The position numbers and the translations under genes were made by a program. A stretch of 64,000 nt of DNA. Origin: Sphingomonas sp. Its GTDB lineage: Bacteria > Pseudomonadota > Alphaproteobacteria > Sphingomonadales > Sphingomonadaceae. Of this stretch, positions 7,280 to 64,000 are shown piece after piece. Under the pieces are notes generated by a model. It saw only the letters and a list, made by a program, of their open reading frames with translations, had not been told where the DNA came from and ran no database searches. Positions within the stretch are counted from its first letter, which is position 1, and every line of letters begins with the position of its first letter. Where the stretch lies: NCBI RefSeq assembly GCF_017304615.1, contig NZ_JAFKLZ010000002.1, forward strand, positions 558,001 to 622,000. The letters are read 5' to 3'.

Positions 7280-7310
7280 GCCGACATTCCCGTCGAGCGG
7301 CGGCATGCGC

Positions 7311-8339: not shown

Positions 8340-8406
8340 CACCCTCTCCCGTCCTCGAATCCGGCGCACGCCGATCCGCTGCTGATCCTTGTGCCGCCTC
8401 AACCTG

Positions 8407-9834
8407 TCACGACGCTGTCGCAGGCGACCCGGTGGCGATGTCGAAGGTCACGACGGCGCGCAGGCCTCTGCCAGACAGCGCCGTCTCGAGCGCTATGTCG
8501 GCGCCGATCGCGCGCGCCAGCGCCTCCGCGATTGAGAGGCCCAGGCCGGTGCCGCGCGCAGGGTCCCGGTGCCCGCGCGCGAACCGGTGGAAGACCGTGC
8601 CGCGCTGCTCGGGCGGGATGCCGGGACCGTCGTCCTCCACAACCACGCTAAGTCGGTCGCCTTCGCGCTCAATCGCGACGCGAACGCTCCCGCCCCGCAC
8701 GTTGTGCTTGATCGCGTTGTCGATGAGGTTGCCTACCAGTTCGACCGCAAACATGTCGTTGGTCACGACGGCCGGCGCGCCGGGCATGCGCTCCACCGCG
8801 AAGTCGATGCCGGCGCGGACAGCGGACAAGGCGTATTCGGACGCGGCTGCAGTGGCGATCTCGTTCGCGTCGACCGCCAGCAGTTCGACTCGGGACTGGT
8901 CCGCCCCGTCCGCGCGCGCCAATGCGAGCAGCTGGACGATCAGATGCTGCAAACGGTCGGTCGCCAGGTCGATGTCCTCTATCGACTCGCGCGCGACGTC
9001 GCTTCCCGGCTTTGCCCCTCGGAGTAAAGCGATGTGCGTGCGAAGGATCGTCAGCGGCGTGCGCATCTGGTGCGAAGCGTCGGCGGTGAAGCGGCGTATG
9101 CCCGCTACCGCAGCCTCGAGCCGCGCGAGCATCGCGTTGAACGCTCCGACAAGTTCCCGCAGCTCGCCCGGCACCTGATGGAGCGCCAACGGGGTGAGGT
9201 CGGCCGCCGAGCGGCGATCCATCTCCGCGCGAACCCGGTGCAAGGGACGCAGGCCCCAGCGGATCGCCAGCGGCAGCAGGGCGAGCGTGGCGCCGATCAG
9301 CACGAGCTCGAGAAGGACGAGCCCGGCAAGGAGACGGTTTGCGATCCGCTGGCGCGCGTCGAGTGTCTCGGCGACCTCGACGATCACCAGCCCATCGACC
9401 TGCGGAAGCCGGCGAGCCTCCGCCACGACGCGCACCGGGCGACCCGCGTAGACGGCGTCGCCGAACGCCACGTTCGTGTCGCCCAGATCGGTTGGCGCGA
9501 TGTTGGGTAGGTCCGCATAGCCCGTCAGGTTACGGCCCCGGTGCCGCACGCTGTAGTAGACATTGTCGCGTGCGGCGTCCTCGAGCATGCCGAACACCGC
9601 TGGTGACAGGTTGAGCCCGACATTGCCGTCCTCCACCGTCAGCGAGTCGACGATCGCCCGCGACGCGGCGCTCAGGATGCGGTCGTTGACCGCCTGGACA
9701 GACTGGTTGATCACCCATGCGCCGCCGAACCCGAGGATCAGCGCCAGCAGCATCACCGGGATCACCATGCCGCGCAGCATGCGCGAAGCGAGCGAGTGCG
9801 CTTGACCGCTTCCTGGCGCCACGTCCGACGTCAT
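8407..9834 (-). CDS. TctE-like sensor histidine kinase
   Basis: A 475-residue membrane kinase. It begins with a membrane span (about residues 18-40) and a periplasmic two-component-sensor N-terminal domain of the TctE type. A second span and a HAMP-like linker (LLPLAIRWGLRPLHRV) follow. The dimerisation/phosphoacceptor helix reads FTADASHQMRTPLTILRTHI with the active His. The ATPase lid and boxes are N (ELVGNLIDNAIKHN), G1 (VVEDDGPGIP) and G2 (GTGLGLSIAEALA). The start was chosen at 9834 because its ATG overlaps the stop of the response-regulator gene (ATGA). TctDE systems sense tricarboxylates, which fits the CitMHS neighbour. Confidence 0.88.
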   Translation of the reverse strand: MTSDVAPGSGQAHSLASRMLRGMVIPVMLLALILGFGGAWVINQSVQAVNDRILSAASRAIVDSLTVEDGNVGLNLSPAVFGMLEDAARDNVYYSVRHRGRNLTGYADLPNIAPTDLGDTNVAFGDAVYAGRPVRVVAEARRLPQVDGLVIVEVAETLDARQRIANRLLAGLVLLELVLIGATLALLPLAIRWGLRPLHRVRAEMDRRSAADLTPLALHQVPGELRELVGAFNAMLARLEAAVAGIRRFTADASHQMRTPLTILRTHIALLRGAKPGSDVARESIEDIDLATDRLQHLIVQLLALARADGADQSRVELLAVDANEIATAAASEYALSAVRAGIDFAVERMPGAPAVVTNDMFAVELVGNLIDNAIKHNVRGGSVRVAIEREGDRLSVVVEDDGPGIPPEQRGTVFHRFARGHRDPARGTGLGLSIAEALARAIGADIALETALSGRGLRAVVTFDIATGSPATAS

Positions 9835-10499
9835 TGGGCATCCAGCACGTAGCCCAGCCCGCGGATCGTGCGGATTCGTGGCCCGTCGGGCTCGAGCTTG
9901 CGCCGGAGCCGGGCCACGTAGACCTCGATCGCGTTGGGCGCGACCGCCTCGTCGTAGCCGAACACTTCCGCCGACAGGCGATCCTTGTCGACGACCTTGC
10001 CGACGCGCGCCGCGAGCCGTTCGAGCACGGCCCACTCGCGGCGTCGCAGGTCGATCGCGCGGCCGTCGATCGCCACCGTGGCGCGCGCCGTGTCGATTGT
10101 CAGCCGCCCGATCGTCTGCACCGGGTCGGCCTCCCCGCTCGCCCGGCGCAACAAGGCGCGGATCCGCGCCTCCAGCTCGCTCGGCTCGAACGGCTTGAGC
10201 ATGTAGTCGTCGGCGCCCGAGTCGAGCCCGGCCAATCGATCCTCCAGGGCGTCGCGCGCGGTGAGGATCAGCACCGGCACCTTGTTGCCAGCAGCGCGGA
10301 TCTTTCGGAGGACCTCGAGCCCCGACATCTCGGGCAGGCCCAGGTCGAGCGTGATGAGCGCATAGGGCTCGTCCGACGCCATCTGCCAGGCGGCCTCGCC
10401 GTCGCTTGCGATATCCGTGGCGTAGCCCGAGGCGCGCAGCGTCGCCGAGAGCCCACGTGCGAGCGAGGGGTCGTCCTCCACCAGTAGGATCCTCGCCAC
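9831..10499 (-). CDS. TctD-like OmpR-family response regulator
   Basis: A 222-residue regulator. The receiver domain begins ARILLVEDDPSLARGL, with the phosphoacceptor Asp in ITLDLGLPEMSGLEVL and the conserved Lys in ADDYMLKPFEPSELEARI. A winged-helix OmpR/PhoB DNA-binding domain follows, ending VYVARLRRKLEPDGPRIRTIRGLGYVLD. The start is taken as the GTG at 10499; another GTG two codons upstream (10505) is equally possible. The frame is open much further upstream, but that stretch lacks any domain and is antisense to the divergent solute-binding-protein gene. It is coupled to the sensor kinase by an ATGA overlap. Confidence 0.88.
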   Translation of the reverse strand: MARILLVEDDPSLARGLSATLRASGYATDIASDGEAAWQMASDEPYALITLDLGLPEMSGLEVLRKIRAAGNKVPVLILTARDALEDRLAGLDSGADDYMLKPFEPSELEARIRALLRRASGEADPVQTIGRLTIDTARATVAIDGRAIDLRRREWAVLERLAARVGKVVDKDRLSAEVFGYDEAVAPNAIEVYVARLRRKLEPDGPRIRTIRGLGYVLDAQ

Positions 10500-10563
10500 C
10501 GTCACCCCCAGTCGTTGACTCGTGTCGGCTATAAAGCGACTTTCCTGGCTAAACGGAAGCTCG

Positions 10564-11673
10564 ATGGCCCGGGGAGGGAACAGCAAGGTGACGGGGAGGA
10601 TGCCGAGACCGGTCCTGTTGCTGTTCGCGATCACCGGCTTGGCCGTGCTCGGTGCGCTCGTCTGGTGGATCGTGACGCTGGCGACGCGCGAGGATCTCCC
10701 CACTGCGGCCAAACGCGAGGGCGTCCTCGAAATCTGGTCGACGACCGACAGCGACCGGGTCAGGGAACTGCTCGCCGACTTCCGCAGGCTCCATCCTGGC
10801 ATCGAGGTCGTCTATTCGGACCTGCACGGGAGCGACATGCAGTCCGCCTTCCTGCGTGCGGCCAAGGAGAAGAACGGCACCGCCGATCTGTTGTGGAGCT
10901 CGGCCATGGACCTGCAGGTCAAGCTGCTCAACGATGGCTATGCGATGACCTACCGCTCACCCGAGGCGCCCAACCTGCCCGACTGGGCGAAGTGGAAGGA
11001 CCAGGCCTGGGGGATCACCGCTGAGCCGATCGTCATCGTCTACAACAAGAAGCTGGTGGCCGAGGACCAGGTTCCGCGCAGCCATGTCGCGCTGCGCAAG
11101 TGGCTCGAGGCGACGGGTCCGAATGATCGCCGCGAGGTCGCGACGTATGATCCCGTGCGCTCCGCGGTGGGCTATCTCTATCTGTCCCAGGACGAGCAGG
11201 CGTCGAACGACATCTGGCGCCTGGTGCGGGCGATGGCGCGCAACAACGTCCGGCTATACACGTCGGCGGAGGAGGTCCTGCGCGATGTGTCGGCCGGAAG
11301 GGTGGCGATCGGCTACAACATCGTCGGATCCTATGCCCTCGACGAGATGTCCAAGAACCCCAACATAGGCGTCGTCCTGCCGCAGGATTACACGCTCGTC
11401 ATGTCGCGGATCGCGATGATCCCAAGCCGTGCGCGCCACCCCGCCGCGGCGAAGCTGTTCCTCGACTTCCTGCTGTCGCGTCAGGGACAGAGGCGGTTGG
11501 CCGAGCGACGCATCACGCCTGCGCGCGGCGACATCGACCTTCCGCCACCACTTGGCACCTACACCACGCCGCTGCGCGCGATCCGCGTCGGGCCCGCCTT
11601 GCTGGTGTCGAACGACCAGCTCACCCGCCAGCACTTCCTGGCGCTGTGGGCCAAGGCGATCGCGCCGCAGTAG
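10564..11673 (+). CDS. Extracellular solute-binding protein (family 1 / iron-type ABC binding protein)
   Basis: About 369 residues. An N-terminal membrane/secretion segment (PVLLLFAITGLAVLGALVWWIV) is followed by a type II periplasmic-binding fold: ILEIWSTTD-like first strand (here VLEIWSTTDSDRVRELLADF), ADLLWSSAMDLQVKLLNDG, WGITAEPIVIVYNKKL, VAIGYNIVGSYA, and a C-terminal ALLVSNDQLTRQHFLALW. It is transcribed divergently from the TctDE-like genes, so it may be their target (inference). No ABC permease or ATPase is adjacent, so it may act as a sensor accessory rather than in a classical importer. Start uncertain: GTG 10522, ATG 10564 and ATG 10600 are all in frame; 10564 has the best-spaced purine-rich site. 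Confidence 0.78.
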   Translation: MARGGNSKVTGRMPRPVLLLFAITGLAVLGALVWWIVTLATREDLPTAAKREGVLEIWSTTDSDRVRELLADFRRLHPGIEVVYSDLHGSDMQSAFLRAAKEKNGTADLLWSSAMDLQVKLLNDGYAMTYRSPEAPNLPDWAKWKDQAWGITAEPIVIVYNKKLVAEDQVPRSHVALRKWLEATGPNDRREVATYDPVRSAVGYLYLSQDEQASNDIWRLVRAMARNNVRLYTSAEEVLRDVSAGRVAIGYNIVGSYALDEMSKNPNIGVVLPQDYTLVMSRIAMIPSRARHPAAAKLFLDFLLSRQGQRRLAERRITPARGDIDLPPPLGTYTTPLRAIRVGPALLVSNDQLTRQHFLALWAKAIAPQ

Positions 11674-52602: not shown

Positions 52603-52623
52603 ACCTTGACATCATGTCAGGGT
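52603..52623 (+). promoter_or_regulatory. CueR-type box downstream of cueR
   Basis: ACCTTGACATCATGTCAGGGT is a near-perfect 21-base dyad with the core TGACAT-C-ATGTCA at 52607-52619. The same core in opposite reading lies in the copper ATPase promoter at 29959. -35 and -10 elements are less clear than there (possible -35 ATAACC, or an upstream TTGACA at 52596; -10 around TTTAGC/TAGCTT). The next gene on this strand starts at 52702 and has no obvious copper role. The rest of 52496-52701 shows no transposon end. Confidence 0.65.
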
Positions 52624-52701
52624 TTAGCTTGCGCAGGACGATCCTGTGCGGCGGCGCTGTTGCGCGCCGGCGATCGAAGGGACCTGACGAAAGGGAAGAC
52701 G

Positions 52702-53325
52702 ATGCAAGAGAATGCCACCGGGGAGGCCCAAGGCCTGCCGCAGCTCATGGACATGCTGACCAACGTGGTCGTGACGCTGGACGCCGTCGGGGCGGATTCC
52801 TACTCCGACGTCTTCCTCTACGTCGCGGGCTGCCGCGACGGCCGGCCGATGGGGGAGCTGTCGCTCGAGCGCGGCGACATGTGGATCTCGACCCACGCCG
52901 ACCACCGACCGACGACGCCCGGCTACATCCGCGCCAATGACGTCGCCGACCGCCGGGCGCTGCTGCTCGCCGACCTCGTCTACCTGATGTGGCACTGGCG
53001 CTGGGACAGCGCCGAGGCGGCCAGGGTGGTCGGCGTCGGCGAGCAGATCCTCGACCGGTGGATCGCCCACGCGGCCGAGAACGGCGGCGACGCCATCCCG
53101 CCCGTCGTGGCGCAGCGCGCGCGCCGCCTCATCGTCGTGGAGCAGCTGCGCCTGATCGTGGGGGTTGAGGACGCGCTCGCGGCGGCCTGGGTGCACGACA
53201 CCCGTGCGGCCTTCGGCGGACGCTCGATCCGCGACCTGCTCGTCGACGACGGCGAGGTCGGGTTCCGCCGGGTCCTGCTGCTGCTCCTCAACCAGGTCGC
53301 CGCGACCAGCCACACGGTTCACTGA
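52702..53325 (+). CDS. Xre/MbcA/ParS-like antitoxin-type protein
   Basis: A 207-residue protein with an AAAGGGAAG ribosome site. The C-terminal ~100 residues fit the helix-turn-helix plus toxin-binding pattern of the Xre/MbcA/ParS family: DSAEAARVVGVGEQILDRWI, then VEDALAAAWVHDTRAAFGGR and SIRDLLVDDGEVGFRRVLLL. The N-terminal ~90 residues (SYSDVFLYVAGCRDGRPMGE) are extra. Family members are usually antitoxins of RES-domain toxins, but no RES gene is adjacent; a DnaQ-like exonuclease follows. A CueR-type box precedes it. Confidence 0.55.
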   Translation: MQENATGEAQGLPQLMDMLTNVVVTLDAVGADSYSDVFLYVAGCRDGRPMGELSLERGDMWISTHADHRPTTPGYIRANDVADRRALLLADLVYLMWHWRWDSAEAARVVGVGEQILDRWIAHAAENGGDAIPPVVAQRARRLIVVEQLRLIVGVEDALAAAWVHDTRAAFGGRSIRDLLVDDGEVGFRRVLLLLLNQVAATSHTVH

Positions 53326-53335
53326 GTTCAGCGCG

Positions 53336-54238
53336 GTGGACGGTTCCGACGAGCTCGACGTTGAGCGCGCCAAGCGGCTGTTGCTGGCCGATGGCCGCTT
53401 CAGGGTGCTGGAGCGTGTCGCGCTGCCCGATCGGCGCGTGTCGCTCGGCCCGACGGCGGGATCGCGGATCGGCATCTGTCTCGACACCGAGACGACCGGT
53501 CTCGATCCGTCCGCCGACACGATCGTCGAGCTCGCGCTGCGGCGCTTCAGATACACATCCGCTGGCGAGATCGTCGCGCTCGACGCGCCGTTCGCATGGC
53601 TGGAGGATCCGGGCCAGCCACTGGATCCGGTCGTGTCACGCCTCACCGGGCTTTCCGACGCCGACCTCGCCGGTTGCACCATCGACGACGGCGCGGCGGT
53701 CGAGCTGATGCTGTCCGCCTCGCTCGTCGTGGCGCACAATAGTCGGTTCGACAGGCCGTTCGTCGAGAAACGTCTGCCTGCCGCGGCCGGCCTGCGCTGG
53801 TCGTGCAGCATGGAGGAAGTCGACTGGGCCGCCGCGGGATACGAGGGTCGCGCGTTGCGCTGGTTATTGGATCAGGCGGGCTGGTTCTACGACGCGCACC
53901 GGGCGGGTGACGATGTCGATGCGCTGATCGAGTTGCTCCGTCACCGGCTGGGCGATGGCGCGACGGTGCTGTCGCACGTCATCGCCGGGGCCGAGCGTGG
54001 CGGCTGGCTCGTCCGGGCGCACGGCGCGCACTACGACCGCAAGGACGCCCTTCGCAGTCGGGGATATTTCTGGAACGGCGCTTCCGGCGAGTGGATGCGC
54101 GAGGTCGTGGACGAGCTGCTCGACGACGAGCGCGAGTGGCTGCGGCTGCAGGTGTATTCGCCGGACCATCGGCCCCGCGCGCCGGGTCCGGTCATCGACC
54201 GGATCGACGCCGGCAGCCGATACCGCCGTCTTCAATGA
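53336..54238 (+). CDS. DnaQ-like (DEDD) 3'-5' exonuclease
   Basis: A 300-residue protein with the exonuclease motifs of the DnaQ/epsilon type: Exo I CLDTETTGLDPSADTIVELA (D-x-E), Exo II SLVVAHNSRFDRPFVEKRLP, and Exo III DAHRAGDDVDALIELLRH (H-x4-D). An extra C-terminal domain of ~100 residues (GHYDRKDALRSRGYFWN-like; here AHYDRKDALRSRGYFWNGAS) resembles the tail of some exonuclease-fusion proteins. A GTG start at 53336 is chosen; it follows the previous stop by 10 bases. It could act in repair or defence. It ends 15 bases from the convergent gene. Confidence 0.8.
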   Translation: MDGSDELDVERAKRLLLADGRFRVLERVALPDRRVSLGPTAGSRIGICLDTETTGLDPSADTIVELALRRFRYTSAGEIVALDAPFAWLEDPGQPLDPVVSRLTGLSDADLAGCTIDDGAAVELMLSASLVVAHNSRFDRPFVEKRLPAAAGLRWSCSMEEVDWAAAGYEGRALRWLLDQAGWFYDAHRAGDDVDALIELLRHRLGDGATVLSHVIAGAERGGWLVRAHGAHYDRKDALRSRGYFWNGASGEWMREVVDELLDDEREWLRLQVYSPDHRPRAPGPVIDRIDAGSRYRRLQ

Positions 54239-54253
54239 CGCTGCGGACTGACC

Positions 54254-55096
54254 TCACCGCCATGGCGATGCGGCGAGATCCGATCGGTCGTGCTCGGGTA
54301 GGATCGCCGCGAACCTGCCCGGCAGGCGGGCCAGCGAGCACTCGGGCACGTCGATGATGGCCCGCGTGTAGTTCCGCCCCGTCCATGCCTTACGTATGGC
54401 GTATTCGGGTCTGGCGAGCAGCGGGTGGGCTATGAGCGACGAAACCTGCCTTCCGCTCAGCGCGACCGAAAGCGTGGCGGCGATCCGGTGGCCGCGCGCC
54501 ACGATCTCGTGCCGGGTCGACAGGAACGTGTCGTCGCCGCCCTCGCGGTAGATGACACCACCGCCCAGGTCGATGGTGGCGCGCAGCAGGTCGCCGATCG
54601 GCGGGCGCTCGACGCTGAGCGACGCGACCCTCTTGGGGCGACCGGTCGGCGGGTCCTTGATGTGGATGTCTATCGGCAGCGCGTTACTGTTCGTCGGTGC
54701 CCAGCGCGCGCGGTCGAGCATGTCCTCCGCCGGCATACCTGCCATCGCCAGCGCATCGCGGAGCACCCGCGAGCAGCGCCATGCCCAGGCGGGCGGGTCC
54801 CACTGGACGCGGCCGTCGATCGCTATAAGGCATTCACGGATCTCGGCGCCGCGGCCCACCCGCAGGGCATCGGCGAATTCCTGCAGGCGCCTGGCGCGAC
54901 GCTTGGGCCCGAAGGCATCGGGGACGATGATACGCCGCTGGTCGACGTCGATCAGGTATCCTTGATGGATCGCGCATCCCGAGATCATCGGCGGCAGCCT
55001 CGTTATGCCGGCGCCGGCGATCGCCGCCGCCACCTCTCCGCGCCTGTGCGGAGGGAGCAGGTCGAGTAGCCATTCGACTTCGGGATGTTGCGGCAT
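54254..55096 (-). CDS. Hypothetical protein downstream of the DDE-fold gene
   Basis: A 280-residue soluble protein, no family recognised. It begins MPQHPEVEWLLDLLPPHRRG and contains IRECLIAIDGRVQWDPPAWA, SNALPIDIHIKDPPTGRPKR and a beta-rich C-terminal half. It follows the DDE-fold gene by 48 bases on the same strand and is probably co-transcribed. The context suggests an accessory of the Tn7-like element (inference). No catalytic motif can be pointed to. Confidence 0.55.
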   Translation of the reverse strand: MPQHPEVEWLLDLLPPHRRGEVAAAIAGAGITRLPPMISGCAIHQGYLIDVDQRRIIVPDAFGPKRRARRLQEFADALRVGRGAEIRECLIAIDGRVQWDPPAWAWRCSRVLRDALAMAGMPAEDMLDRARWAPTNSNALPIDIHIKDPPTGRPKRVASLSVERPPIGDLLRATIDLGGGVIYREGGDDTFLSTRHEIVARGHRIAATLSVALSGRQVSSLIAHPLLARPEYAIRKAWTGRNYTRAIIDVPECSLARLPGRFAAILPEHDRSDLAASPWR

Positions 55097-55144: not shown

Positions 55145-56356
55145 TCAGTTGCCGCTCTGGTGCTGGCCCTCGGCCATTTCCTCGACTTCGTCGACGAGGT
55201 CGAAGTGTAGGGGGCAGCCGCCGGCATCGCCCAGACGTTCGGTCAGCACCGTGGCGATGTTGGTGACGATCACGGTCCGCGCCTGCTCGAGGGTTAGCAC
55301 CGGGTGTGTCGCCGGATCGAAGCCGGCCGTGGAGCCATCCTCTTCGTGCCCGGCACGCGCGAGCAGGCGCAGCCTGCCGAGGCGCGGCCCGACGAGCCGC
55401 GCAGTGGGGGCGCCGAAGGGCAACTCGGGCGACCGGCGTCCCGACACCACGATGCCCGACGACTTGAACCGCCTGAATAGCCGTGTCCAGTCGGCCGAAT
55501 AGCTGGATCCGAAAACGATCCGCGGCCGGACCGGCACACCGGAGAGGTTCGCCGACCGCAGCGTCGCGTCGGCGATGGCAGCGACTATCATTTCCGCATT
55601 CGGCGGTGCCAGTGCGACGGCGTGGCCGATCGGCGCGCCGGTGAACAGGTCGATCGCCAGAGTAAGGGTGGGACGCGTGGGGTTGGGCCCGTCCTCCGCG
55701 AATATATCGACCAGGCAATGGTCGAAGATGATGACCTCGCCGAAGCCGCGGGCCACCTCGTTCGCCTCGCGGCGGAGCAGCTCGCCGTCGCCGGCCTCCT
55801 CCTTGGCTATGGCCTGCAGCACGAAGCGCCGCAGCGTTTCGCGCGCCGGCGGCTTGGTCTTGTCGCCCCAGCCGCGGGCCACCGCGTCGACGATGACGTT
55901 CGGGGTCCGGTCGCGGGTCGAGCCGAGCGCGCTTCCGATCCTGGTCTCGATCTCCGCGGCGCGTTCGGCCTTGACCGAGGGCCGCTTCGGCACGACCGGT
56001 TCGCTGTAGGGCGCCAGCGGGACGGGCGATGCCGTCCGCTCCCACAGCTTGCACAGGCCGTAGAACCGCGAGCGGCCGATGCCCAGTTCGGCCGCGCAAT
56101 CATCGGCCTTTGCCGCGGAACGGCTCTCGAGCGCGAGGTAGCGCTTAATGACGTCCATCCGCTTCAGCGCCGCGGCGCGCTTTTCCAGCGTCAGCTCGAG
56201 CCAGCGCGGATCGCCCCGCCAGTCCTCGCCGTCGGTCGTCATGAACGCCCCTGCATCATCGCGGGCGACGATAGGCGATCGTTCGTGTGGCAGCAAGAAG
56301 CGCCTCAATGCACGCTGCCACGAAGGAACGTGGTCGGAATGGGATTGACAAGGCAT
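55145..56356 (-). CDS. TnsB/Mu-type DDE-fold protein lacking a catalytic Asp
   Basis: A 403-residue protein. Helix-turn-helix-like segments at about residues 66-105 (MDVIKRYLALESRSAAKADD, AAELGIGRSRFYGLCKLWER) precede an RNase H-like fold with EVIIFDHCLVDIFAED (Asp212), then RPTLTLAIDLFTGAPIGHAV. In active relatives the next strand carries a D-N-G or D-R-G Asp; here it reads RPRIVFGSSYSADW (residues 279-290), so that Asp is missing. Glu311 might remain. It is much shorter than the adjacent TnsB (748 aa). The ATG at 56356 has a GAGG site. Divergent from the winged-helix/tnsABC side. Probably a DNA-binding, non-cleaving relative (inference). Confidence 0.65.
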   Translation of the reverse strand: MPCQSHSDHVPSWQRALRRFLLPHERSPIVARDDAGAFMTTDGEDWRGDPRWLELTLEKRAAALKRMDVIKRYLALESRSAAKADDCAAELGIGRSRFYGLCKLWERTASPVPLAPYSEPVVPKRPSVKAERAAEIETRIGSALGSTRDRTPNVIVDAVARGWGDKTKPPARETLRRFVLQAIAKEEAGDGELLRREANEVARGFGEVIIFDHCLVDIFAEDGPNPTRPTLTLAIDLFTGAPIGHAVALAPPNAEMIVAAIADATLRSANLSGVPVRPRIVFGSSYSADWTRLFRRFKSSGIVVSGRRSPELPFGAPTARLVGPRLGRLRLLARAGHEEDGSTAGFDPATHPVLTLEQARTVIVTNIATVLTERLGDAGGCPLHFDLVDEVEEMAEGQHQSGN

Positions 56357-56416
56357 GACTTTTCCTCTCTTGTTACTGTCACGTTCGCTTGCAACGAGTC
56401 CAGGAGTATAATTGGA

Positions 56417-56812
56417 ATGATGGTCAGGGAGCGGGTGGCGACCCGGCGGAGGGACGCGAAACCGACGATGGACGGATCGAGGCCGGTCGAAGTCAGAAGG
56501 ATCGGCCGACCGCTGTCGTTCGAGCTCGCACGCACGGCGATGTCGGCGGCGGCGGCCAGGCCGGGATCGGACGTGCTCGACCCGCTGGCGGCACACGCCA
56601 TAATGAGCGCCGTTGACTCCGTCGCCGCCGTCGTCGTCCTCGCGCTCGTTTCATGTTCCGAGGGGCCGGTGACGTTCGGTGCGGTCGTGGCGTCGCTCGG
56701 TTCCCGCGTCGCGGCGCGGTTCGCGGTGCTCGCGCTCCTCGGGCGCGGGGCGGTCCGCGTCGCGACGCCCGGCTACCTGACCGACGCTTCGCTCATCGAG
56801 GCCCGCCGGTAG
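56417..56812 (+). CDS. Small winged-helix-like protein before tnsA
   Basis: A 131-residue protein. The basic N terminus (RERVATRRRDAKPTMDG) may contact DNA. The C-terminal 55 residues, GPVTFGAVVASLGSRVAARF then GYLTDASLIE, align by eye with the end of the next protein (GPALSFGYLVSALGSRCAVE ... FSDDSMIH) and with the winged-helix C terminus of TnsA-type proteins. An AGGAG site lies 10 bases before the ATG. It is 60 bases from the divergent DDE-fold gene and 23 bases from the next gene. Confidence 0.5.
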   Translation: MMVRERVATRRRDAKPTMDGSRPVEVRRIGRPLSFELARTAMSAAAARPGSDVLDPLAAHAIMSAVDSVAAVVVLALVSCSEGPVTFGAVVASLGSRVAARFAVLALLGRGAVRVATPGYLTDASLIEARR

Positions 56813-56835
56813 CCGCGGCGCTTGGGAGACGACGG

Positions 56836-57594
56836 ATGGCGTTGAGATTCGACGGGTGCACTTTCCTCGGCGGCCGGTTCGGCGAGCGGGTCGAGAGGGT
56901 GCTCGCGCACGCGATCGGCACCGAGTTCCTCCCCCCGATGCGGGCATGCTCCAAGCGGGCGCATGACCGGGCGCTCAGGGAGCTCCGCGAAGCAGGACTG
57001 CCGTATGTGTCCTATGACGCAGTGCGCCGGCGAATGGCAGCGATCCAGCGGTGGTTCGACCGGCACCGTGAGGTGCGCTGGACGTTCAACCGACAGGTTC
57101 CCATCGACCTGATCGTGGTGGACGCGAACGGCTCGCCGCTCGGCAGGCCGCTGATCACGCTCTCGGGTTCAGTTCGGGTTGAGGGGGATCAGGGCTGGCT
57201 CGACGCGAGGGCCGAGGTCAGCTTCCCGTGCGCCGCATCGACGACGCCGATGGGCGTATGGCGCGCGACGGAGGCGAAGCGGGTCCGTGCCCGCGGCAGG
57301 GATGCGGCGCCGGTGCGGCAGGTTGTCGCCGCCCGTTCCGAAACGGGCCGCCCTGCCTTCCGCCGGCGGGCCCGGCTCGCGCAGCTACTGGATGACGCGC
57401 AATCCGTGCTGGGAATCTTCAACAGGCGCGGCCCCGCCCTGTCGTTCGGATACCTGGTGTCCGCGCTCGGCTCGCGGTGTGCGGTCGAGGCGGCGGTCCG
57501 TCACCTCATCCGCGAAGGCAAGCTCTGGTCGCCCGAGGAGCACGAGTTCAGCGACGACAGCATGATCCACCTGGCGTCCGACGATGTCTTCTGA
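56836..57594 (+). CDS. Chimeric TnsB-fragment/winged-helix protein
   Basis: A 252-residue protein. Residues 80-110 (RQVPIDLIVVDANGSPLGRP LITLS, written here in two blocks) match the start of the RNase H fold of the TnsB encoded nearby (QQVEIDH ... VVDDASGVLLGRPWIT). That includes the first catalytic Asp (Asp91), but the rest of the catalytic core is absent. The N-terminal part is helix-turn-helix-like. The C-terminal ~55 residues are the same winged-helix-like module as in the previous gene. It looks like a truncated transposase joined to a TnsA-type C-terminal domain. Its stop overlaps the tnsA start by 11 bases. Confidence 0.5.
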   Translation: MALRFDGCTFLGGRFGERVERVLAHAIGTEFLPPMRACSKRAHDRALRELREAGLPYVSYDAVRRRMAAIQRWFDRHREVRWTFNRQVPIDLIVVDANGSPLGRPLITLSGSVRVEGDQGWLDARAEVSFPCAASTTPMGVWRATEAKRVRARGRDAAPVRQVVAARSETGRPAFRRRARLAQLLDDAQSVLGIFNRRGPALSFGYLVSALGSRCAVEAAVRHLIREGKLWSPEEHEFSDDSMIHLASDDVF

Positions 57595-58270
57595 ACTCGC
57601 CTTCGTCATGCCCGACGACAGCTGTCTGGACGAGCTGGCCTACGGCGTCCGCTACGATCCCGTCCGCGATCCGCGCACGCGCCGCAACGCCAGGTCCATC
57701 ACCGGTGAGCTTATCTCGGTCCGGGATTCGGTGTGCCATGTCTTCGAAAGCCTGGGGGAGATGCGGACGGCCATCATTCTCGACGTGAGCCACGACGTCG
57801 CCGGCTTCAGGACGCAGCCCGAGCGGATGCATCTCGACGACGGCGGGACCTATACGCCCGACGTGCAGATCTGGTGGAGGGATGGCCGCGTCACCTACCG
57901 CGAGGTCAAGCCCGACGAGAAGCTGATCGAAAAGCCCGACCTCGACGGCAGGGTCGATCCCATCCGGCGGGCCTGCGCCGAGCGCAGTGCGGACTTCGAG
58001 ATCGTGACGGACCGCTGGTATAGCGACCCCGTCCGTCTCAGGAACGCCAACCTCCTGCGCCACGCGTTCCGCCGTTCCCGCGCGGATGACCTCGCCGCCG
58101 TAGCGGACCTGCTGAGCCGCCGCGGCGCCTTGCCGCTATCGGAGGTGCCGCGCGAATCAGGCCTCGGACCGGCGGGGCACTATGCCGCGCTCGCCCTTGC
58201 GGCGGCGCGGCGGTGCCATGTCGATCTCGGTATGGCGATCGGCTTCGACACCATGATGCGGCTGGCATAG
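57584..58270 (+). CDS. tnsA: TnsA-like transposon endonuclease
   Basis: A 228-residue protein with a restriction-type core: TYTPDVQIWWRDGRVTYREV then KPDEKLIEKP, giving Asp93, Glu107 and Lys109 as the D...E-x-K site. TRTTLDV-like strand here is RTAIILDVSHDVAGF. The C-terminal winged helix (LADLLSRRGALPLSEVPRES ... MAIGFDTMMRLA) is the part that in Tn7 contacts TnsC. TnsA cuts the 5' ends of the transposon while TnsB cuts the 3' ends, allowing cut-and-paste movement. Three bases separate it from tnsB. Confidence 0.85.
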   Translation: MSSELAFVMPDDSCLDELAYGVRYDPVRDPRTRRNARSITGELISVRDSVCHVFESLGEMRTAIILDVSHDVAGFRTQPERMHLDDGGTYTPDVQIWWRDGRVTYREVKPDEKLIEKPDLDGRVDPIRRACAERSADFEIVTDRWYSDPVRLRNANLLRHAFRRSRADDLAAVADLLSRRGALPLSEVPRESGLGPAGHYAALALAAARRCHVDLGMAIGFDTMMRLA

Positions 58271-58273
58271 GCC

Positions 58274-60520
58274 ATGAGCAGCGCGCCGCTCCGGTTCGGC
58301 CTGAACCACACCATCGTCATCACCGATGTCCATGGCGGCAAGCGCTGGTGGACGGTCCGCGAGCGCCGTCGCGACGGATACCTCCTCGAGCCGAACGACG
58401 AGCCGGGCGAGCGCCGTTTCCATGGCGCCGACGACATCCTCGAGGTCTATCTCGCCGGGCGGCTCGAGTATAAGCCCTTCGACGCCGCGCACTTCGACGA
58501 GGCGCGGCGCCAGCGCATGAGGATGGCGTGGGACGCGCAATCCCCCGACCGCCAGCGTCGCGCGCTGCGGCGCGAGGTGATCGTCAAGGCCTGCCTGAAG
58601 GCCATCCGCGCGCGCGAACCCGTGGGCACCGTGCTCCTCGACGTGCCGGGTGCCGTGCTCGACGAGCACCGGGAGAAGTGGGCCGAGGAGGACCGGCAGG
58701 CCGCCCGTGCGACTTTCGATGCGCGGCGGGCCGCGGGCCTTCCGATCGAGCCCGGCGCCGGCCCGCAGGAGCCGCAGGCGATGACGGCGCCGTGCGCGCG
58801 GACGACATCCGAATGGATCGCCCGCTATCTCGAGATGGGCCAGAGTGTGCTCGCGCTCGTCTCCTACGATGATCGCAAGGGCTATCGCGGCTCCCATCTC
58901 ACTCCCGAGGTCGAGGCCGTCATGGGCGAGTTCATTGCGCGCGCGCTCGAGAAGGGTCCGATCCGAAACCTCGCGGCCTATCACCGGCTGCTGGAGCGCG
59001 AGCTGCAACGCGTCGGGCAGCCGGTGCCCAGCCGGGTGACCTTCGCCAAGAAGGTCCGCGCCGCGGCCGACCGCAGGCAGACCCTCAAGTCGCAGCAGGG
59101 CCAGCGGGCCGCTGACGAGGCGTGCCGGATCAACGAATACGTGCCAGACCCCGACTGGCTGCTGCAGCAGGTCGAGATCGACCACACGCTCGCCAACCTC
59201 AACGTCGTCGACGACGCCAGCGGCGTCCTGCTCGGCCGTCCCTGGATCACGATGATCATGGATCGGCTAACCCGGTGCATCCTGGGCTGCCACGTCTCCT
59301 TCCTACCACCGTCGTGGGCGACGCTGTCGCGGTGCATCGCGCACGCGCTGTGGCCCAAGGACATGACCGCCTATCCGGGACTGGAATGGTCCCAGCACGG
59401 CAAGTGGGACTGGGCCTACACCGACCGCGGCATGGACTTCATCAGCCATCCCGCCCGGCGCTCGGCGCAGCTTCTCCACTTCGAGATCGCGAACCTTCCG
59501 GGCTTCAGCCCGTGGCTCAAGGGCCGGATCGAATCTTTGTTCAAGCGCTTCGCTCTCCAGGCCTACGATTACCGGGATGGCCTCATCTCGTGGGACCTGA
59601 AGGAGTATGACGGCCGGAAGAACGCCAGCGTAGGCTACGCCGAGTTCCGTCGCGACATCGTGACGTGGATCGCCCGCGACTATCACCCCAACGGGCATTC
59701 CGGCCTCGACGGGCAGATGGCGCCGAACGACTTCTGGCAGTCGCAGGTCGATCTGAACTTCGGCGTCACGCCGGTCGATTCCACCGGCGGCCTGCGTCGC
59801 CTGCTCGGCGTGAGCGTGCGCCGCCGCGTCTCGCACATGGGCATCCGCGTGCACGGCCTGAACTACAACGGACCGGGATTGGGAGCCATCCGCGATCGCC
59901 ACGGATCCGACGTCGACTGGTATGAGGTGCGTTACGATCCATACGACCTCGCGGGCGTGGACCTGCTGGACCACGTCACCGGGGAATGGCTCACGCTGTG
60001 GTGCACCCGGCCGGACATCGCGAACGGCACGACCGCGTGGCAGCATACCTTCCATGCCCAGCTTGCCGGCGAGATGGCGCGCGGGGGCGTGGTGACGGAG
60101 GACGGCCTCGAGCGCGCCCGCGCCGCCGCCCAGGCCGATCGGGATCTCATCATCGGGCGGGGCAGGCAGGGCCGCACCAAGACTGCACAGGTCAAGCTCG
60201 CGCGCTACTTGGAGCAGGGCGCGTTCCTGACGCCGATCCGCCTTTTCCCCGCTCCCCTGCAGCCCTACCTTCCCGTCGTCACCGGCGGCACCGACAGCGG
60301 TGGCCTCATCACGTTCTCGCAGCCTGCACCGCTGCTCCTTCCTGGTTTGGCGACGCCCGTCCCGGCGCTAGTCGACGGGTCCGGCAATCCGCTCGGCGGC
60401 GGCGCTCCGCGCCTCATGCACCAGTCTGCCCCTGCGCTCATCACCACTCCCGCCCAGAAGGCCGCGGCGGACGTCCAGGCGAGGCTCGCCGCGCGGCGGG
60501 CGGAAAGGGTCGGATCGTGA
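58274..60520 (+). CDS. tnsB: TnsB-like DDE transposase
   Basis: A 748-residue transposase of the Tn7/Mu/Tn5053 type. The N-terminal ~290 residues contain several helical DNA-binding modules. The RNase H core has Asp303 (QQVEIDHT), Asp384 (AYTDRGMDF) and Glu420 (KGRIESLF), a DD(35)E triad. A Mu-type beta-barrel domain follows (MGIRVHGLNYNGPGLGAIRD, DVDWYEVRYDPYDLAGVDLL). The C-terminal tail should bind TnsC. All catalytic residues are intact. The stop overlaps the tnsC GTG start. Confidence 0.9.
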   Translation: MSSAPLRFGLNHTIVITDVHGGKRWWTVRERRRDGYLLEPNDEPGERRFHGADDILEVYLAGRLEYKPFDAAHFDEARRQRMRMAWDAQSPDRQRRALRREVIVKACLKAIRAREPVGTVLLDVPGAVLDEHREKWAEEDRQAARATFDARRAAGLPIEPGAGPQEPQAMTAPCARTTSEWIARYLEMGQSVLALVSYDDRKGYRGSHLTPEVEAVMGEFIARALEKGPIRNLAAYHRLLERELQRVGQPVPSRVTFAKKVRAAADRRQTLKSQQGQRAADEACRINEYVPDPDWLLQQVEIDHTLANLNVVDDASGVLLGRPWITMIMDRLTRCILGCHVSFLPPSWATLSRCIAHALWPKDMTAYPGLEWSQHGKWDWAYTDRGMDFISHPARRSAQLLHFEIANLPGFSPWLKGRIESLFKRFALQAYDYRDGLISWDLKEYDGRKNASVGYAEFRRDIVTWIARDYHPNGHSGLDGQMAPNDFWQSQVDLNFGVTPVDSTGGLRRLLGVSVRRRVSHMGIRVHGLNYNGPGLGAIRDRHGSDVDWYEVRYDPYDLAGVDLLDHVTGEWLTLWCTRPDIANGTTAWQHTFHAQLAGEMARGGVVTEDGLERARAAAQADRDLIIGRGRQGRTKTAQVKLARYLEQGAFLTPIRLFPAPLQPYLPVVTGGTDSGGLITFSQPAPLLLPGLATPVPALVDGSGNPLGGGAPRLMHQSAPALITTPAQKAAADVQARLAARRAERVGS

Positions 60521-61668
60521 CGAAGGACGACATTAAGGCGCGCATCCTGCGGCTGGAGACGCTGGTCATTCGGCACCCGCAGTTCGTGGCCGCCCAGGAC
60601 GCGATCCTGGACCTCGAGCTGCGGCGGCCGGCGGCGCTGCCCGCCGGGCCGCATGCGGGCCCGCCCGCCGATACGGCGGAGGACGACGTGCCGTTCGATT
60701 TCTCCGAGGATGGTCTCGAGGACGCGCCTCCGGGCGGCGGCGCGCTCACCCAGTATTGCGTCATGATCGTCGGCCCTGCGGGCACCGGGAAGAGCCACGT
60801 CCTTACCAGCATCCAGGCTCTGCCGGAGATGCAGGTCGACACTTCGGGTCGCTACGGTGACCGTCGGCCGGTCGTCAGGCTGGACGTGCCGGACTTCGCC
60901 AATCCGAAGCAGACGGTGGTGGAGATTATGCGCGCCGTCGGCGCACCCGTGCCGAAGCGGCTCACCCGCAACGGCGTCGCGAGCCGGCTGCGGTATCAGT
61001 TCCAGCAGCTCGAGACGCGGCTGCTGATGCTGGACGAGGCGCATTCGTTCGTCGACGGGCAGGGGGAGGCCGGGCTCCGCGCCAACGGCAAGTTCCTCAA
61101 GTTCCTACTCAACAGTTGCGGCGTCCCGATCGCCATGGCGGGGGAGGAGTCGCTCGAGGAGCTGCGCACGTCGAAGGCGCTGAAGCGGCGCACCGACGCG
61201 CTGGTGGAACTGCGCCCCTACTCCTGGTCCGATCCCGACGAGCAGCTCGAGTTCCTCGACATCCTCGGCCAGCTCGAGGACGCCATGGGGTTCGGCACCG
61301 ACGCCGCGCTCAGCACCGACACGGAACTCGCGTGCCGGCTCTACTTCGCGTCGGAGGGCTCGGTGGGCCTGGTCACGAAGATCCTGTCGCAGGCCCTGAA
61401 GCTGGCGCTGAAGGCCGGTGCGGGCGCGATCGACAGGCAGGTCCTCTCGAAGGCGTTCCGGTTGGAGAACCCAGCGTCGGTCCTGGTCGCCGACGATCCG
61501 GACATCTTCGTCGCCCCCGTCGGCGGACGCGACGATCCGTTCCTCGTCGACGCCGCCAAGTTCAAGGCGATGTGGAAGGCGCGCTACTCTGCGCCTCCCG
61601 TCGACCGTTCACGCAAGACCGGCATCCGTCGGGCGCCCAAGCGCGACGCGCAGGGTCTGTCGCTGTGA
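60517..61668 (+). CDS. tnsC: TnsC/TniB-like AAA+ regulator of transposition
   Basis: A 383-residue AAA+ ATPase: Walker A IVGPAGTGKSH (residues 86-93), Walker B LLMLDEAH (169-176), sensor regions in LNSCGVPIAMAGEESLEELR and RRTDALVELRPYSW, and a lid domain with EGSVGLVTKILSQALKLALK. It forms ATP-dependent filaments on target DNA, linking the TniQ/TnsD target selector to the TnsAB transposase. GTG start overlaps the tnsB stop; its own stop overlaps the tniQ start. Confidence 0.9.
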   Translation: MTKDDIKARILRLETLVIRHPQFVAAQDAILDLELRRPAALPAGPHAGPPADTAEDDVPFDFSEDGLEDAPPGGGALTQYCVMIVGPAGTGKSHVLTSIQALPEMQVDTSGRYGDRRPVVRLDVPDFANPKQTVVEIMRAVGAPVPKRLTRNGVASRLRYQFQQLETRLLMLDEAHSFVDGQGEAGLRANGKFLKFLLNSCGVPIAMAGEESLEELRTSKALKRRTDALVELRPYSWSDPDEQLEFLDILGQLEDAMGFGTDAALSTDTELACRLYFASEGSVGLVTKILSQALKLALKAGAGAIDRQVLSKAFRLENPASVLVADDPDIFVAPVGGRDDPFLVDAAKFKAMWKARYSAPPVDRSRKTGIRRAPKRDAQGLSL

Positions 61669-63470
61669 GCGGAACGATCGCCCTCCGCGTGCCCTCCATT
61701 TCGACTGAACCGGCGCACGGACTGCTTGCCCGCACGGCCACGAGGCTCAGGCTCACCCCAGCGACCTTCGCGGCCGACCTCGGAATCGAAGTTTCGGCGC
61801 TCGCCCGGGGGGACGGGCTCGACCGGTTCGCGAGCGCCGTCGGCGTCGATGCAGCGACCCTATCGCGGTCCACCGCGAGCCGCGGGTCTAGGCCGGGCCA
61901 GCTGACGCTGATGGGCGAGACGCTGGGACGCGGTGATCTGTCGGTTTCGCCGCGGCGGCGCTGCCCGCGCTGCCTGGCGGAGGACCGGTCGGCAGCCCGT
62001 GCCACGGGTCTGTCCGAGCGATATGCCGCATGGCACCGGACTTGGTGGGACGCCTCCATGGTGCTGTCGTGCCCGACGCACCGCTCGCTCCTGACCAACA
62101 CCTGCCAATCGTGTGGCAAGCAGGTGGACTGGCGATCGCCGTCGATCGACATCTGCAGGTGCGGCGCGCCGCTCTGGCTGGACCATGGAGGGGAACTGCC
62201 CCGCTGCGACGGCGACGCGTATCTTCTCGCCCGCCTGGAGGGTGGATCCCGAGAGGCCGTCCCGCTGCTCGATGGGCTCACCCTCGGTCGAGCCGCGGCG
62301 GCAATGGGTCGGCTCGGTGAATGCGGGTTGGGCTTCGCCACATCCCGCCCGGACGTCGCCGGGGCCGATCTGGTCCGCCTGACCGCGGACGGCTTCCAAA
62401 CCGCGCGCACGTTCGAGACGGCGTTTCCCAGGATCCTGGACGATGTAGTCACGGGCGCAGGTGGCGATGCCGTGGGACTGATGGCCTCATACGGATGGAC
62501 CTACCGCAGCTGGCTGGCGCCGCCCGGCGGCGACCACAGCGGGGGGATCCTTCGCGATGCGCTCCTCCGCCACGCCGCGGGGCGCGGCATCATCGCGACC
62601 GACGAGCTGCAGGCATCCGAGAATGCGGTGACCCTCGGCGAGGCGTCGGAGATCCTCGGCATGGGACACGACCGCACCCGCCGCATCGCGGCCCGGGCGG
62701 GGCTCGTGCCGGCGGGCTCCCGTCGCGGCGTCAACTTCGCCATCGATCGGGATGCGGCTCGCGAACTTGCGCGCCGACTGGCGTCGCTCGTGGATGCACG
62801 GACGGCGGCCGCGCTGCTCGGCATCGGCCGAAGCCAGTTCCGCTCGCTCGTCGCCGCCGGGCTCGTCGCGCCCGACGAGGAGGCTGGGCGACTGGGATCC
62901 GGCGCGCTCTACGACGTCGAGCGGCTGGTTGCTTGGGTCGCGTCCCTCGCCGTGGGAGTCCCGGCCGTGTCGAGGACGCCGACGTCCTGCCTGCCGCTGC
63001 CCACCGCGTGTCGCAACTTCTCCCTCTCGCTCGTCGACGTCTGCCAGGCCATCTCGTCGGGGGTCCTGACGCCCGTTGGTCTCCGCGGCGAGAAGGGGCG
63101 CCTGACCTCGGTCGTCGTCTCATGCCGCGAGATGAAGGCCCTGCGCGATCCCGACCCGCTGACCGTTGGGGGTGTCGCGAGGAGGCTGGTCATCCATCCC
63201 GAGGCCGCATCGGCGCTGGTGCGCGCTGGCTTGGTGGGTCCGGTGGGCGCAGTCACTCCCCAGGGACTGCTGGACTTCACACGCGCAAACGCAACGCCGC
63301 GGGATCTGGCGGGTGAGTTCGGAACGTCCCCGCGGTCCGTCGTGGCCAGGCTGCGGGGCGCCGGGCTCGCCCCCACGTTGTTCCCTCCCGCCTTCCGCCA
63401 GCTGTTCTACGACCGCACGATCGCGAGGGGGGTGCTGCTGGCTGACTTGCCGGGTGCCGGCAGGTCGTGA
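61665..63470 (+). CDS. tniQ: TniQ/TnsD-family target-selection protein, first copy
   Basis: A 601-residue protein. The TniQ N-terminal start is recognisable (EPAHGLLARTATRLRLTPAT). A double zinc-binding region follows near residues 98-170: CPRCLAEDR, LSCPTHRSLLTNTCQSCGKQ, ICRCGAPLW. The C-terminal half has repeated helix-turn-helix-like units (LGEASEILGMGHDRTRRIAA, RTAAALLGIGRSQFRSLVAA, GGVARRLVIHPEAASALVRA) that would read the target site, as in TnsD. Size is like TnsD rather than the short CRISPR-linked TniQ. GTG start overlaps tnsC, and the stop overlaps the second tniQ. Confidence 0.87.
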   Translation: MSGTIALRVPSISTEPAHGLLARTATRLRLTPATFAADLGIEVSALARGDGLDRFASAVGVDAATLSRSTASRGSRPGQLTLMGETLGRGDLSVSPRRRCPRCLAEDRSAARATGLSERYAAWHRTWWDASMVLSCPTHRSLLTNTCQSCGKQVDWRSPSIDICRCGAPLWLDHGGELPRCDGDAYLLARLEGGSREAVPLLDGLTLGRAAAAMGRLGECGLGFATSRPDVAGADLVRLTADGFQTARTFETAFPRILDDVVTGAGGDAVGLMASYGWTYRSWLAPPGGDHSGGILRDALLRHAAGRGIIATDELQASENAVTLGEASEILGMGHDRTRRIAARAGLVPAGSRRGVNFAIDRDAARELARRLASLVDARTAAALLGIGRSQFRSLVAAGLVAPDEEAGRLGSGALYDVERLVAWVASLAVGVPAVSRTPTSCLPLPTACRNFSLSLVDVCQAISSGVLTPVGLRGEKGRLTSVVVSCREMKALRDPDPLTVGGVARRLVIHPEAASALVRAGLVGPVGAVTPQGLLDFTRANATPRDLAGEFGTSPRSVVARLRGAGLAPTLFPPAFRQLFYDRTIARGVLLADLPGAGRS

Positions 63471-64000
63471 CGACGGGTTCGACTGGCCGGTCGTTGGCCT
63501 CCGCCGCTCCCGATCGCGCCGCGCTGCGGATCAGGCACAAGCCTTTCGAAGGTGCGCGCGAACTGGCGCTCCGGTCCGCCGATCGTTTGGGATGCGCTAG
63601 CCTTCAGGAGTTCACGAAGTGGATGTCGCTGCCGGAAGTGGCAGTGTTCGACCCACCGTCGATAGCCCGTTTGGCGGCTTTCGCCGGAGCGGACCGGCAG
63701 GAATTGGAGCAGTGGTCACAGCGCCCGACGGACCGACATGGCATCGTTCAATACCGCGACACGACGATATCCATCGTTAAAGTCAGGTCGCGATGGCGCA
63801 GGTTCTGCCCGATGTGCCTTCAGGACGACCTTCGGCGCCTGGAGCCCGATGAACCGCGTTCCAACGGGCCGTATCATCGGTCGTGGTGGTCGATATCGAT
63901 CTTCTACGCATGCCCGGAACACCGGTGCGCCATGATCGAACGCTGTCCAGGATGCGGGGAGAGCATCGGTCGGGACAGCCTTCCGATGCATCGGCACGAC
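63467..64000 (+). CDS. Second TniQ-family protein, 3' truncated by window end
   Basis: A frame opens at the GTG overlapping the first tniQ stop (GTGA) and stays open to the end of the window, 178 codons so far. It shows the TniQ zinc-binding layout: RWRRFCPMCLQDDL, a WWSISIFYACPEHRCAMIER segment and CPGCGESIG. The N-terminal part FTKWMSLPEVAVFDPPSIAR resembles the TniQ helical domain. A second selector in one operon suggests two target pathways or a heteromeric selector (inference). The sequence continues beyond 64000. Confidence 0.8.
   Translation, partial: MTTGSTGRSLASAAPDRAALRIRHKPFEGARELALRSADRLGCASLQEFTKWMSLPEVAVFDPPSIARLAAFAGADRQELEQWSQRPTDRHGIVQYRDTTISIVKVRSRWRRFCPMCLQDDLRRLEPDEPRSNGPYHRSWWSISIFYACPEHRCAMIERCPGCGESIGRDSLPMHRHD

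Follow-up and report, generated by a model that had tools for sequence, protein, structure and literature searches.

A predicted catalytically dead TnsB/TniA relative, encoded divergently from tnsABC, as a candidate control protein of Tn7-like elements in Sphingomonas and related bacteria

We analyzed a stretch of 64,000 nucleotides from Sphingomonas sp. (the window, by which the whole stretch is meant throughout) that carries a tns operon on the plus strand in the order wh1, chim, tnsA, tnsB, tnsC, tniQ and a second tniQ (Table 1). This operon qualifies as Tn7-like, as it encodes TnsA, TnsB with an intact catalytic triad, TnsC and TniQ. Divergent from it is a gene designated ddx. Our analysis suggests that ddx, which in most elements is accompanied by a second gene of the same kind, ddx2, probably codes for a protein, derived from a TniA/TnsB-type transposase, that binds DNA and controls the Tn7-like element. 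The simplest account is a repressor-operator module, and we regard it as reasonably likely that binding and repression of this kind would take place.

Sequence comparisons indicate that ddx is a catalytically dead relative of TnsB and TniA with two helix-turn-helix (HTH) domains and an RNase H-like core. The first catalytic Asp (D212) is kept, and the second Asp and the Glu are lost. An earlier note, made from the sequence of the window alone, had pointed to a missing second Asp (FGSS) in an RNase H-like protein; the loss is real, as the window protein reads IVFGSS at this place and the corresponding column (D2) is Asp in 2 of 30 aligned ddx members, with an Asp two columns later in 17 of the 30. 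The column of the first Asp (D1) is Asp in 29/30. Residue 311, aligned with the catalytic Glu, is Glu in 9/30 members and Gln in the 80% identical ortholog described below, and a global ddx-TnsB alignment pairs the catalytic Glu with the residue beside 311 instead. Among 32 aligned TnsB proteins (28 from ddx loci and four others, all long uninterrupted frames, with stop-broken ones excluded), the same positions are kept in 32/32 (D1), 31/32 (D2) and 32/32 (E).

In profile comparisons, the ddx family matched TnsB of these elements (hhalign probability 97.6%, E 4.7e-12; in global mode 98.6%, 1e-14) and TniA-type transposases (seven sequences; 99.4%, 1.4e-21), and the controls (TnsA, TnsC and TniQ) did not exceed 0.6% with ddx or 4% with ddx2. 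The TniA type is nearer to ddx than the neighboring TnsB is, so ddx probably did not arise by recent duplication of the latter. The family profile also matched ShCAST TnsB (7svw; 3e-9, residues 52-260) from the N-terminal domains to the middle of the core, where the similarity stops, and the window protein matched PHROG 310, 'transposase' (3e-12). Pfam returned a weak HTH match and nothing else for ddx, NCBIfam and PADLOC returned no match, and Mu-transpos_C (PF09299), which was matched in the window TnsB, was found neither in ddx nor in eight further ddx/ddx2 proteins. The ddx proteins are mostly 350-430 aa long, compared with 550-750 aa for TnsB/TniA. An AlphaFold model built on a two-sequence alignment was poor (mean predicted local distance difference test score, pLDDT, 43.7; 64-79 in most of both HTH regions), and its best Foldseek matches were TnsB structures, without significance. 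The fold assignment therefore rests on the profiles.

To follow the gene across genomes, 396 genomes of the order were surveyed (survey A1), of which 41 matched ddx at E 1e-8 or better. The Pfam TnsA model (PF08722) was too insensitive for this subfamily (18/396 genomes), and our own TnsA alignment located 45 places in 40 of the 396 genomes, two of which were pieces of one gene, leaving 44 loci. The neighborhoods covered were those of the short-frame ddx matches, some long-frame ones and the remaining TnsA loci. ddx was present in 28 of the 44 loci. By profiles, it is divergent from the tns operon in all 31 loci that have both ddx and tnsA, a set that includes three loci from the relatives search outside the 396 genomes (L022, L023 and L085); L114, which came from the weaker matches of the relatives search and has two tnsA-like frames, tnsB, tnsC and one ddx divergent from tnsA, makes this 32/32. 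The check on co-occurrence proposed in the earlier note thus came out strongly positive for ddx, which is divergent from tnsA in 32 of the 33 examined loci with a ddx-type gene. In the exception, L024 (G070, 5993-11626), the ddx-type gene is transcribed divergently from an operon of two genes. The larger encodes a protein that matches phage integrases (PHROG 1, 1.5e-9), the product of the smaller matched nothing, and no tns genes were found within the 20 kb fetched. A 5-kb contig (L115) carried ddx2 alone. tniQ was found in 30 of the 31 ddx + tnsA loci, the remaining one (L068) being cut by a contig end.

Beyond the order, 289 genomes of the class and 309 of the phylum yielded no member of the short ddx family; these samples overlap the order sample (e.g., G000, G010, G204 and G205). 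Matches outside the order were open frames of at least 515 aa (class) and at least 543 aa (phylum), and the long-frame matches that were opened were ordinary TniA/TnsB. Of viral contigs, 17 stretches fit the pattern and none was confirmed as a relative; plasmid matches came from eight records, all below 60% identity at 49-54% coverage. In the flanks downstream of tniQ (26 loci), 0 of 46 predicted proteins were common between loci at E 1e-10, and therefore the elements appear to have inserted at many different sites. On the ddx2 side, some metal-resistance-like cargo is common between loci (by eye).

ddx2 is present in 28 of the 31 loci, convergent with ddx in 25 and in tandem with it in three (L086, L088 and L089). 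It is related to both ddx (hhalign 99.9%) and TniA (99.4%). It appears more degenerate than ddx, because the first Asp is kept in 10 of 25 aligned sequences (two have gaps in this column) versus 29/30, and in two of the 25 (L079 and L082) little core is left. Higher copy numbers were also observed: L088 (1223-6723) has one ddx and three tandem ddx2-type genes, and L114 (2472-7823) has two ddx and two ddx2 in one element.

Comparison of individual elements suggests that ddx/ddx2 and tnsABC-tniQ are exchanged against each other. In L065 and L067, which come from different genera and lie on contigs of 390 kb and 2.6 Mb, ddx is 80.6% and ddx2 73.6% identical, whereas TnsA, TnsB, TnsC and TniQ (16, 19, 23 and 21%) are at background level (medians 20-25%). 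Similar splits were seen at the protein level for L066 versus L063 and L068 (counted as one case; the comparison with L068 was limited to TnsA and TnsB), L073/L074 and L069/L071. The reverse split occurs in L063/L064 (TnsA 77, TnsB 70, TnsC 58 and TniQ 64%; ddx 24.5%), in L076/L083 (TnsB 64%, ddx 23.5%) and, less cleanly, in L066/L073 (TnsB 68%, ddx 31%, with an all-pair ddx median of 19%). In L067/L070, the tns genes are 54-74% identical and the ddx/ddx2 pair 39%. Distances correlated well between ddx and ddx2 (r 0.80), tnsB and tnsC (0.89) and tnsB and tniQ (0.85); the value for ddx and tnsB was r 0.14 (p 0.025), a rough figure given that these distances are saturated.

At the DNA level, homology between L065 and L067 spans L065 6934-10090 (tnsA-forward). 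It covers ddx2, ddx, the intergenic region and, to the left of ddx2, a further stretch of about 0.8 kb, and it stops where the tns operon starts (tnsA is annotated from 10069). In the reverse splits, the homology begins 15 bp inside tnsA (L063/L064), inside tnsA with two additional short blocks left of ddx2 (L076/L083), or consists of a long block inside tnsA and two short blocks farther left (L066/L073). As L069/L071 gave no DNA match and L073/L074 a single match inside ddx, the boundary could not be placed in these pairs. Where it can be placed (one pair at the DNA level, L065/L067), the promoter DNA appears to go with ddx/ddx2. In this pair, protein and promoter DNA have thus been exchanged apart from the machinery, as would be expected of an immunity module. 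The ratios of nonsynonymous to synonymous substitution rates (dN/dS) for L065/L067 are 0.08 for ddx (upper limit 0.11) and 0.12 for ddx2 (upper limit 0.18).

The same pair shares a block of 73 bp directly before the tns operon with 4 mismatches. Synonymous sites differ by 66% in ddx and 64% in ddx2, and identity of the DNA on either side of the block drops to 33-52% per 60 columns. The block holds the motif ATGCCAAYGC twice, 44 bp apart. In the window and L022, its relative described below, the ddx-tns intergenic region is 81% identical over 193 columns and contains a TTGACA-like -35 and a TGTTAC-like -10 directed towards the tns operon (a promoter call made by eye).

The closest relative of the window locus that we found is in Sphingomonas corticis 36D10-4-7 (L031; L022 of G076 was taken as the same contig). 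It keeps the order of eight genes from orf54 through the first tniQ, with protein identities of 80% for orf54, 80% for ddx, 62% for wh1, 53% for chim, 87% for TnsA, 92.5% for TnsB, 95% for TnsC and 86% for TniQ, and the right-hand flank of the element differs between the two (by eye). Between the window and L022, dN/dS was 0.28 for ddx (95% confidence interval (CI) 0.20-0.36), 0.26 for orf54 (95% CI 0.18-0.38), 0.41 for wh1 (CI 0.26-0.61) and 0.46 for chim (CI 0.33-0.60), and 0.15, 0.10, 0.10 and 0.22 for tnsA, tnsB, tnsC and tniQ, respectively. None of ddx, orf54, wh1 and chim looks like a decaying gene; wh1 and chim appear to be fast-evolving and, by these ratios, under purifying selection. 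This agrees with the earlier suggestion that ddx, wh1 and chim are in use and not in decay. Because bias is weaker over the first 38 codons of ddx (pN 0.20, pS 0.28), its translation may begin at Met39.

The S. corticis element (G076) has inverted ends, TGTTCACGAAACCAATTGTC and TGCTCACGAAACCAATTGTC, with TTGGTTTC-type repeats. They lie at about 70.7 and 101.9 kb, with TGT at the right and TGC at the left end, and a 5-bp CCGTC (read by eye) flanks the element on both sides. These features argue that the gene set moves as one transposon. In the window genome, the one end found is the right one, at about C8:623471, with an inverted TGT and TTGGTTTC-type repeats. For the left end, a search of 92 kb that allowed up to 6 mismatches found no match in the forward direction, and a genome-wide end search (3 mismatches) returned the right end and two 3-mismatch matches, on C1 and rightward on C8, which were taken as chance. 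The window copy may therefore have a lost or diverged left end. A clear end array was seen only in the window genome and S. corticis. When 28 loci were scanned for end-type repeats, both in their ddx-tnsA intergenic DNA and over the 350 bp behind tniQ, no consistent motif emerged.

We propose that ddx would bind operator sites in the intergenic DNA before the tns operon and repress the divergent promoters, probably with autoregulation, and that transposition would thereby be kept off in an established host. Protein and operator would then play the part that the immunity region plays in a temperate phage, and, as the two travel together, elements with different modules would not be expected to cross-repress. 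A repressor-operator module is favored by the divergent layout, the joint exchange of protein and promoter DNA and the retention of end-recognition-type domains. In the available part of the ShTnsB study, NTD1/2 are the end-recognition domains; ddx retains the counterpart of these, and what was not found in it represents the catalytic function and the C-terminal domains (PMC9527255). The position of the L024 gene beside an integrase-like operon also fits a regulator better than a TnsB partner. A broader possibility, to which we give a little less than even weight, is that Sphingomonadaceae Tn7-like elements carry an exchangeable immunity region, consisting of a dead DDE pair and operator DNA, and that its swapping changes the immunity group and allows escape from resident repression.

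Several observations weigh against a repressor-operator module. The first Asp is near-invariant in ddx, and a plain repressor need not keep it. As many as 16 of the 44 TnsA loci have no recognized ddx (these include L092, with tnsA alone, L091, close to the end of its contig, and L094, in which a ddx2-like gene lies on the same strand as tnsA), and the window, L022 and L023 lack ddx2. Protection of the promoter block is known from one locus pair, in which about 480 bp left of ddx2, a stretch with open frames that recur in other loci, is also 85-93% identical; high conservation is therefore not unique to the 73-bp block. In the window, a search allowing up to 2 mismatches found the ATTGGTTTC-type end site nowhere in the ddx-wh1 region, and the single such site in the S. 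corticis counterpart region lies inside wh1, which gives no support to the idea of sites common to ddx and TnsB. Confidence in the AlphaFold model of ddx is low, and operator binding and repression of the tns promoter are steps that we infer from sequence.

The earlier note had offered end-binding regulators, immunity factors and target adaptors as possible roles; regulation or immunity is favored by our data and the adaptor role is not. It is conceivable, although unlikely, that ddx/ddx2 compete at transposon ends and not at a promoter, as dominant-negative or immunity/exclusion factors against other elements. Such competition would suit end-binding-type domains without catalysis and the frequent presence of two copies, with one ddx and three ddx2 in L088 and two of each in L114, and a foreign element could be the target since ddx is nearer to the TniA type than to the neighboring TnsB. 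However, the promoter region moves along with ddx/ddx2 and shows protection in the single locus pair that could be measured, and the 28 intergenic regions showed no consistent end-type motif, with ends sought only in the 350 bp behind tniQ. Rather improbable, in our view, is that ddx/ddx2 are non-catalytic transpososome subunits that replace structural TnsB protomers. In ShTnsB, as far as the accessible part of the study goes, two of four protomers are structural, with active sites not properly positioned (PMC9527255), and the TnsB N-terminal and core homology kept by ddx and its constant linkage to tnsA would be in line with such a role; however, ddx/ddx2 pairs that are 74-81% identical occur with TnsB proteins 19% identical to each other, ddx and TnsB distances hardly correlate, Mu-transpos_C was not found in the tested ddx/ddx2 proteins, and in L024 a ddx-type gene sits beside an integrase-type operon. 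A tight TnsB partner is thus disfavored by the exchange of ddx independently of tnsB.

The same kind of evidence makes it very unlikely that ddx is a target-site adaptor working with TniQ: 30/31 loci have their own tniQ, ddx and tniQ are exchanged independently, and ddx belongs to a separate, divergent transcription unit, although TnsF offers a precedent for an inactivated recombinase in a Tn7-like element in the part of the report available (PMC10293859). Lastly, the loss of catalytic residues and the variability of ddx2, including the copies with little core in L079 and L082, might suggest decaying relics. We consider this scarcely credible in view of the upper dN/dS limits given above for ddx (window/L022 and L065/L067), ddx2 (L065/L067), wh1 and chim, and of the constant gene layout.

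In the window, wh1 and chim may form a local second layer of small DNA-binding modulators next to the proposed ddx repressor. wh1 shares the C-terminal module of chim (z 3.5-5.9, BLASTP E 4e-5 to 3e-3 in four window/ortholog combinations), in agreement with the earlier view of this frame as essentially a winged-helix module. The module is supported as a winged helix in chim by the structural model (pLDDT 84-91) and by its likeness to a Z-alpha domain (Foldseek probability 1.00, target template modeling score 0.81, E-value only 0.065), and wh1 is linked to it by similarity. The other part of what had been read in chim, the first strands of the TnsB core, has moderate support. The TniA profile matches window chim in a pair of collinear segments that cover the HTH and the first core strands (E 9.7e-5 among 5928 frames; best of 300 shuffles 0.96), but the chim ortholog only at 0.41, and the TnsB profile gave 0.63 on chim. 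The pairwise score of chim versus TnsB has a z of 1.4 and was reached by 30/300 shuffles, and the N-terminal half of chim is collinear with TnsB 171-353 at an hhalign probability of 47%. It is therefore plausible, with moderate confidence, that chim is a chimera whose N-terminal half consists of the second HTH and first core strands of a TniA-type transposase. Similarity of chim and of wh1 to TnsA was at chance level or weak. Among all annotated loci, wh1 and chim were recognized only in the window and L022 (S. corticis).

Short frames upstream of tnsA matched the TnsB N-terminal profile in L079 (9e-14) and L068 (2e-8), with a borderline case in L063 (0.003); chance-like matches of this profile start at 0.007 among the 5928 frames. 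In L086 (1e-19) and L088 (2e-12), a TnsB N-terminal-like fragment lies farther off on the opposite strand. This thin series suggests that such fragments recur upstream of tnsA (L079 and L068). Look-alike frames in L072, L080, L085, L086, L088, L089 and L091 were noted by eye alone.

The ddx frame had been noted before; it is borne out at the same position, but lies on the minus strand and is divergent from tnsA. The slot held by ddx2 in other elements is occupied in the window by orf54, for which a family search gave no match better than E 0.08 and whose similarity to ddx or TnsB is at chance level or weak. The two tniQ genes are 25% identical (tblastn), and a tandem tniQ also ends the operon in S. 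corticis. Farther left (52606-54238, plus strand) are a gene with a weak Xre/MbcA/ParS C-terminal match, whose distance to ddx is equal in the window and S. corticis, and then an RNase_T exonuclease frame (53165-54238).

Table 1. Position of the window and its annotated features
Feature	Position	Strand	Description
window	G000:C8:558001-622000		within 3.34-Mb genome
orf54	54254..55096	minus	280 aa; directly downstream of ddx, same strand
ddx	55145..56356	minus	403 aa open frame, divergent from tnsA; alternative start Met39, about 56242
ddx-tns operon intergenic/promoter region	56300..56420	none	overlaps 5' end of ddx frame; aligned with L022
wh1	56417..56812	plus	131 aa; first gene of tns operon; kin of chim winged-helix module
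chim	56836..57594	plus	252 aa; overlaps tnsA by 11 bp
tnsA	57584..58270	plus	Pfam PF08722, E 5e-7
tnsB	58274..60520	plus	DDE intact: D303, D384, E420
tnsC	60517..61668	plus	TniB/AAA
tniQ 1	61665..63470	plus	PF06527, E 9e-13
tniQ 2	63467..64000	plus	runs past window to about C8:623347 (L021 1468-3348)

Other elements showed features of their own. The genome of the window contains a second Tn7-like element, L080 (G000:C1:751000-770500), which comprises tnsABC, tniQ, ddx and ddx2. Even the first Asp is missing from the ddx of this element, and an exonuclease in its cargo resembles the RNase_T gene of the window (by eye). In the related elements L067 (11585-13983, plus strand) and L070 (5461-7889, minus strand), tnsB consists of two overlapping frames split after the catalytic part, and this looks like a natural two-piece TnsB. 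In the ddx-carrying element L023 (1110-10738), a tniQ/tnsD-type gene, and not tnsA, is located beside the 3' end of an apparent glmS (by eye), an orientation that is the reverse of the Tn7 arrangement.

As far as we searched, control of Tn7-like elements beyond the well-studied models is largely open, and the regulators of CRISPR-associated transposons (CAST) described in the accessible parts of the literature are MerR and Xre proteins. A dead-transposase pair beside tnsABC would be a testable answer for one group of elements and a further case of a transposase turned regulator. ddx/ddx2 could also provide a compact DNA-binding off-switch for Tn7-type systems, and surveys of Tn7-like elements that rely on TnsB homology could miscount them as transposases. 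If true, swapping of immunity regions would be to transposons what heteroimmunity is to lambdoid phages.

Dead or truncated transposases as regulators are a known kind. The phage Mu repressor shares its DNA-binding domain with MuA, the IS50 inhibitor protein is a transposase-related or truncated regulator, and in lambdoid immunity regions repressor and operator are exchanged as a block. In contrast to these, the Tn7-like elements described here carry an entire DDE protein in dead form, in most cases together with another dead copy. With TnsB (ShCAST 7svw/8aa5; E. coli 7pik) and TniA, ddx shares N-terminal helical DNA-binding domains, an RNase H-like core and the first Asp; it differs from them in the absence of D2 and E, the lack of a Mu-transpos_C match, its shorter length and its divergent gene. 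The element-encoded CAST regulators CvkR (PMC9938897) and RtaC/RtbC (PMC11406308) are, in the available parts of these reports, MerR-type and Xre proteins, respectively, and not transposase-derived. In a search of open-licence papers, we found no account of a TnsB-like gene that is dead and lies divergent from tnsABC, so that the earlier statement that these transposition-derived genes are not described for Tn7 holds for the literature searched. The closest likeness in kind is TnsF of Tn6022, a catalytically inactivated recombinase adopted by a Tn7-like element; according to the accessible part of its description, TnsF is a tyrosine-recombinase derivative that is operonic with tniQ and acts as a target selector (PMC10293859), whereas ddx is, by its profile matches, of the DDE type, divergent and exchanged independently of tniQ. 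Thus, with an inactivated recombinase already known in TnsF, the swappable dead-DDE pair appears, as far as we searched, to be new in Tn7-like elements.

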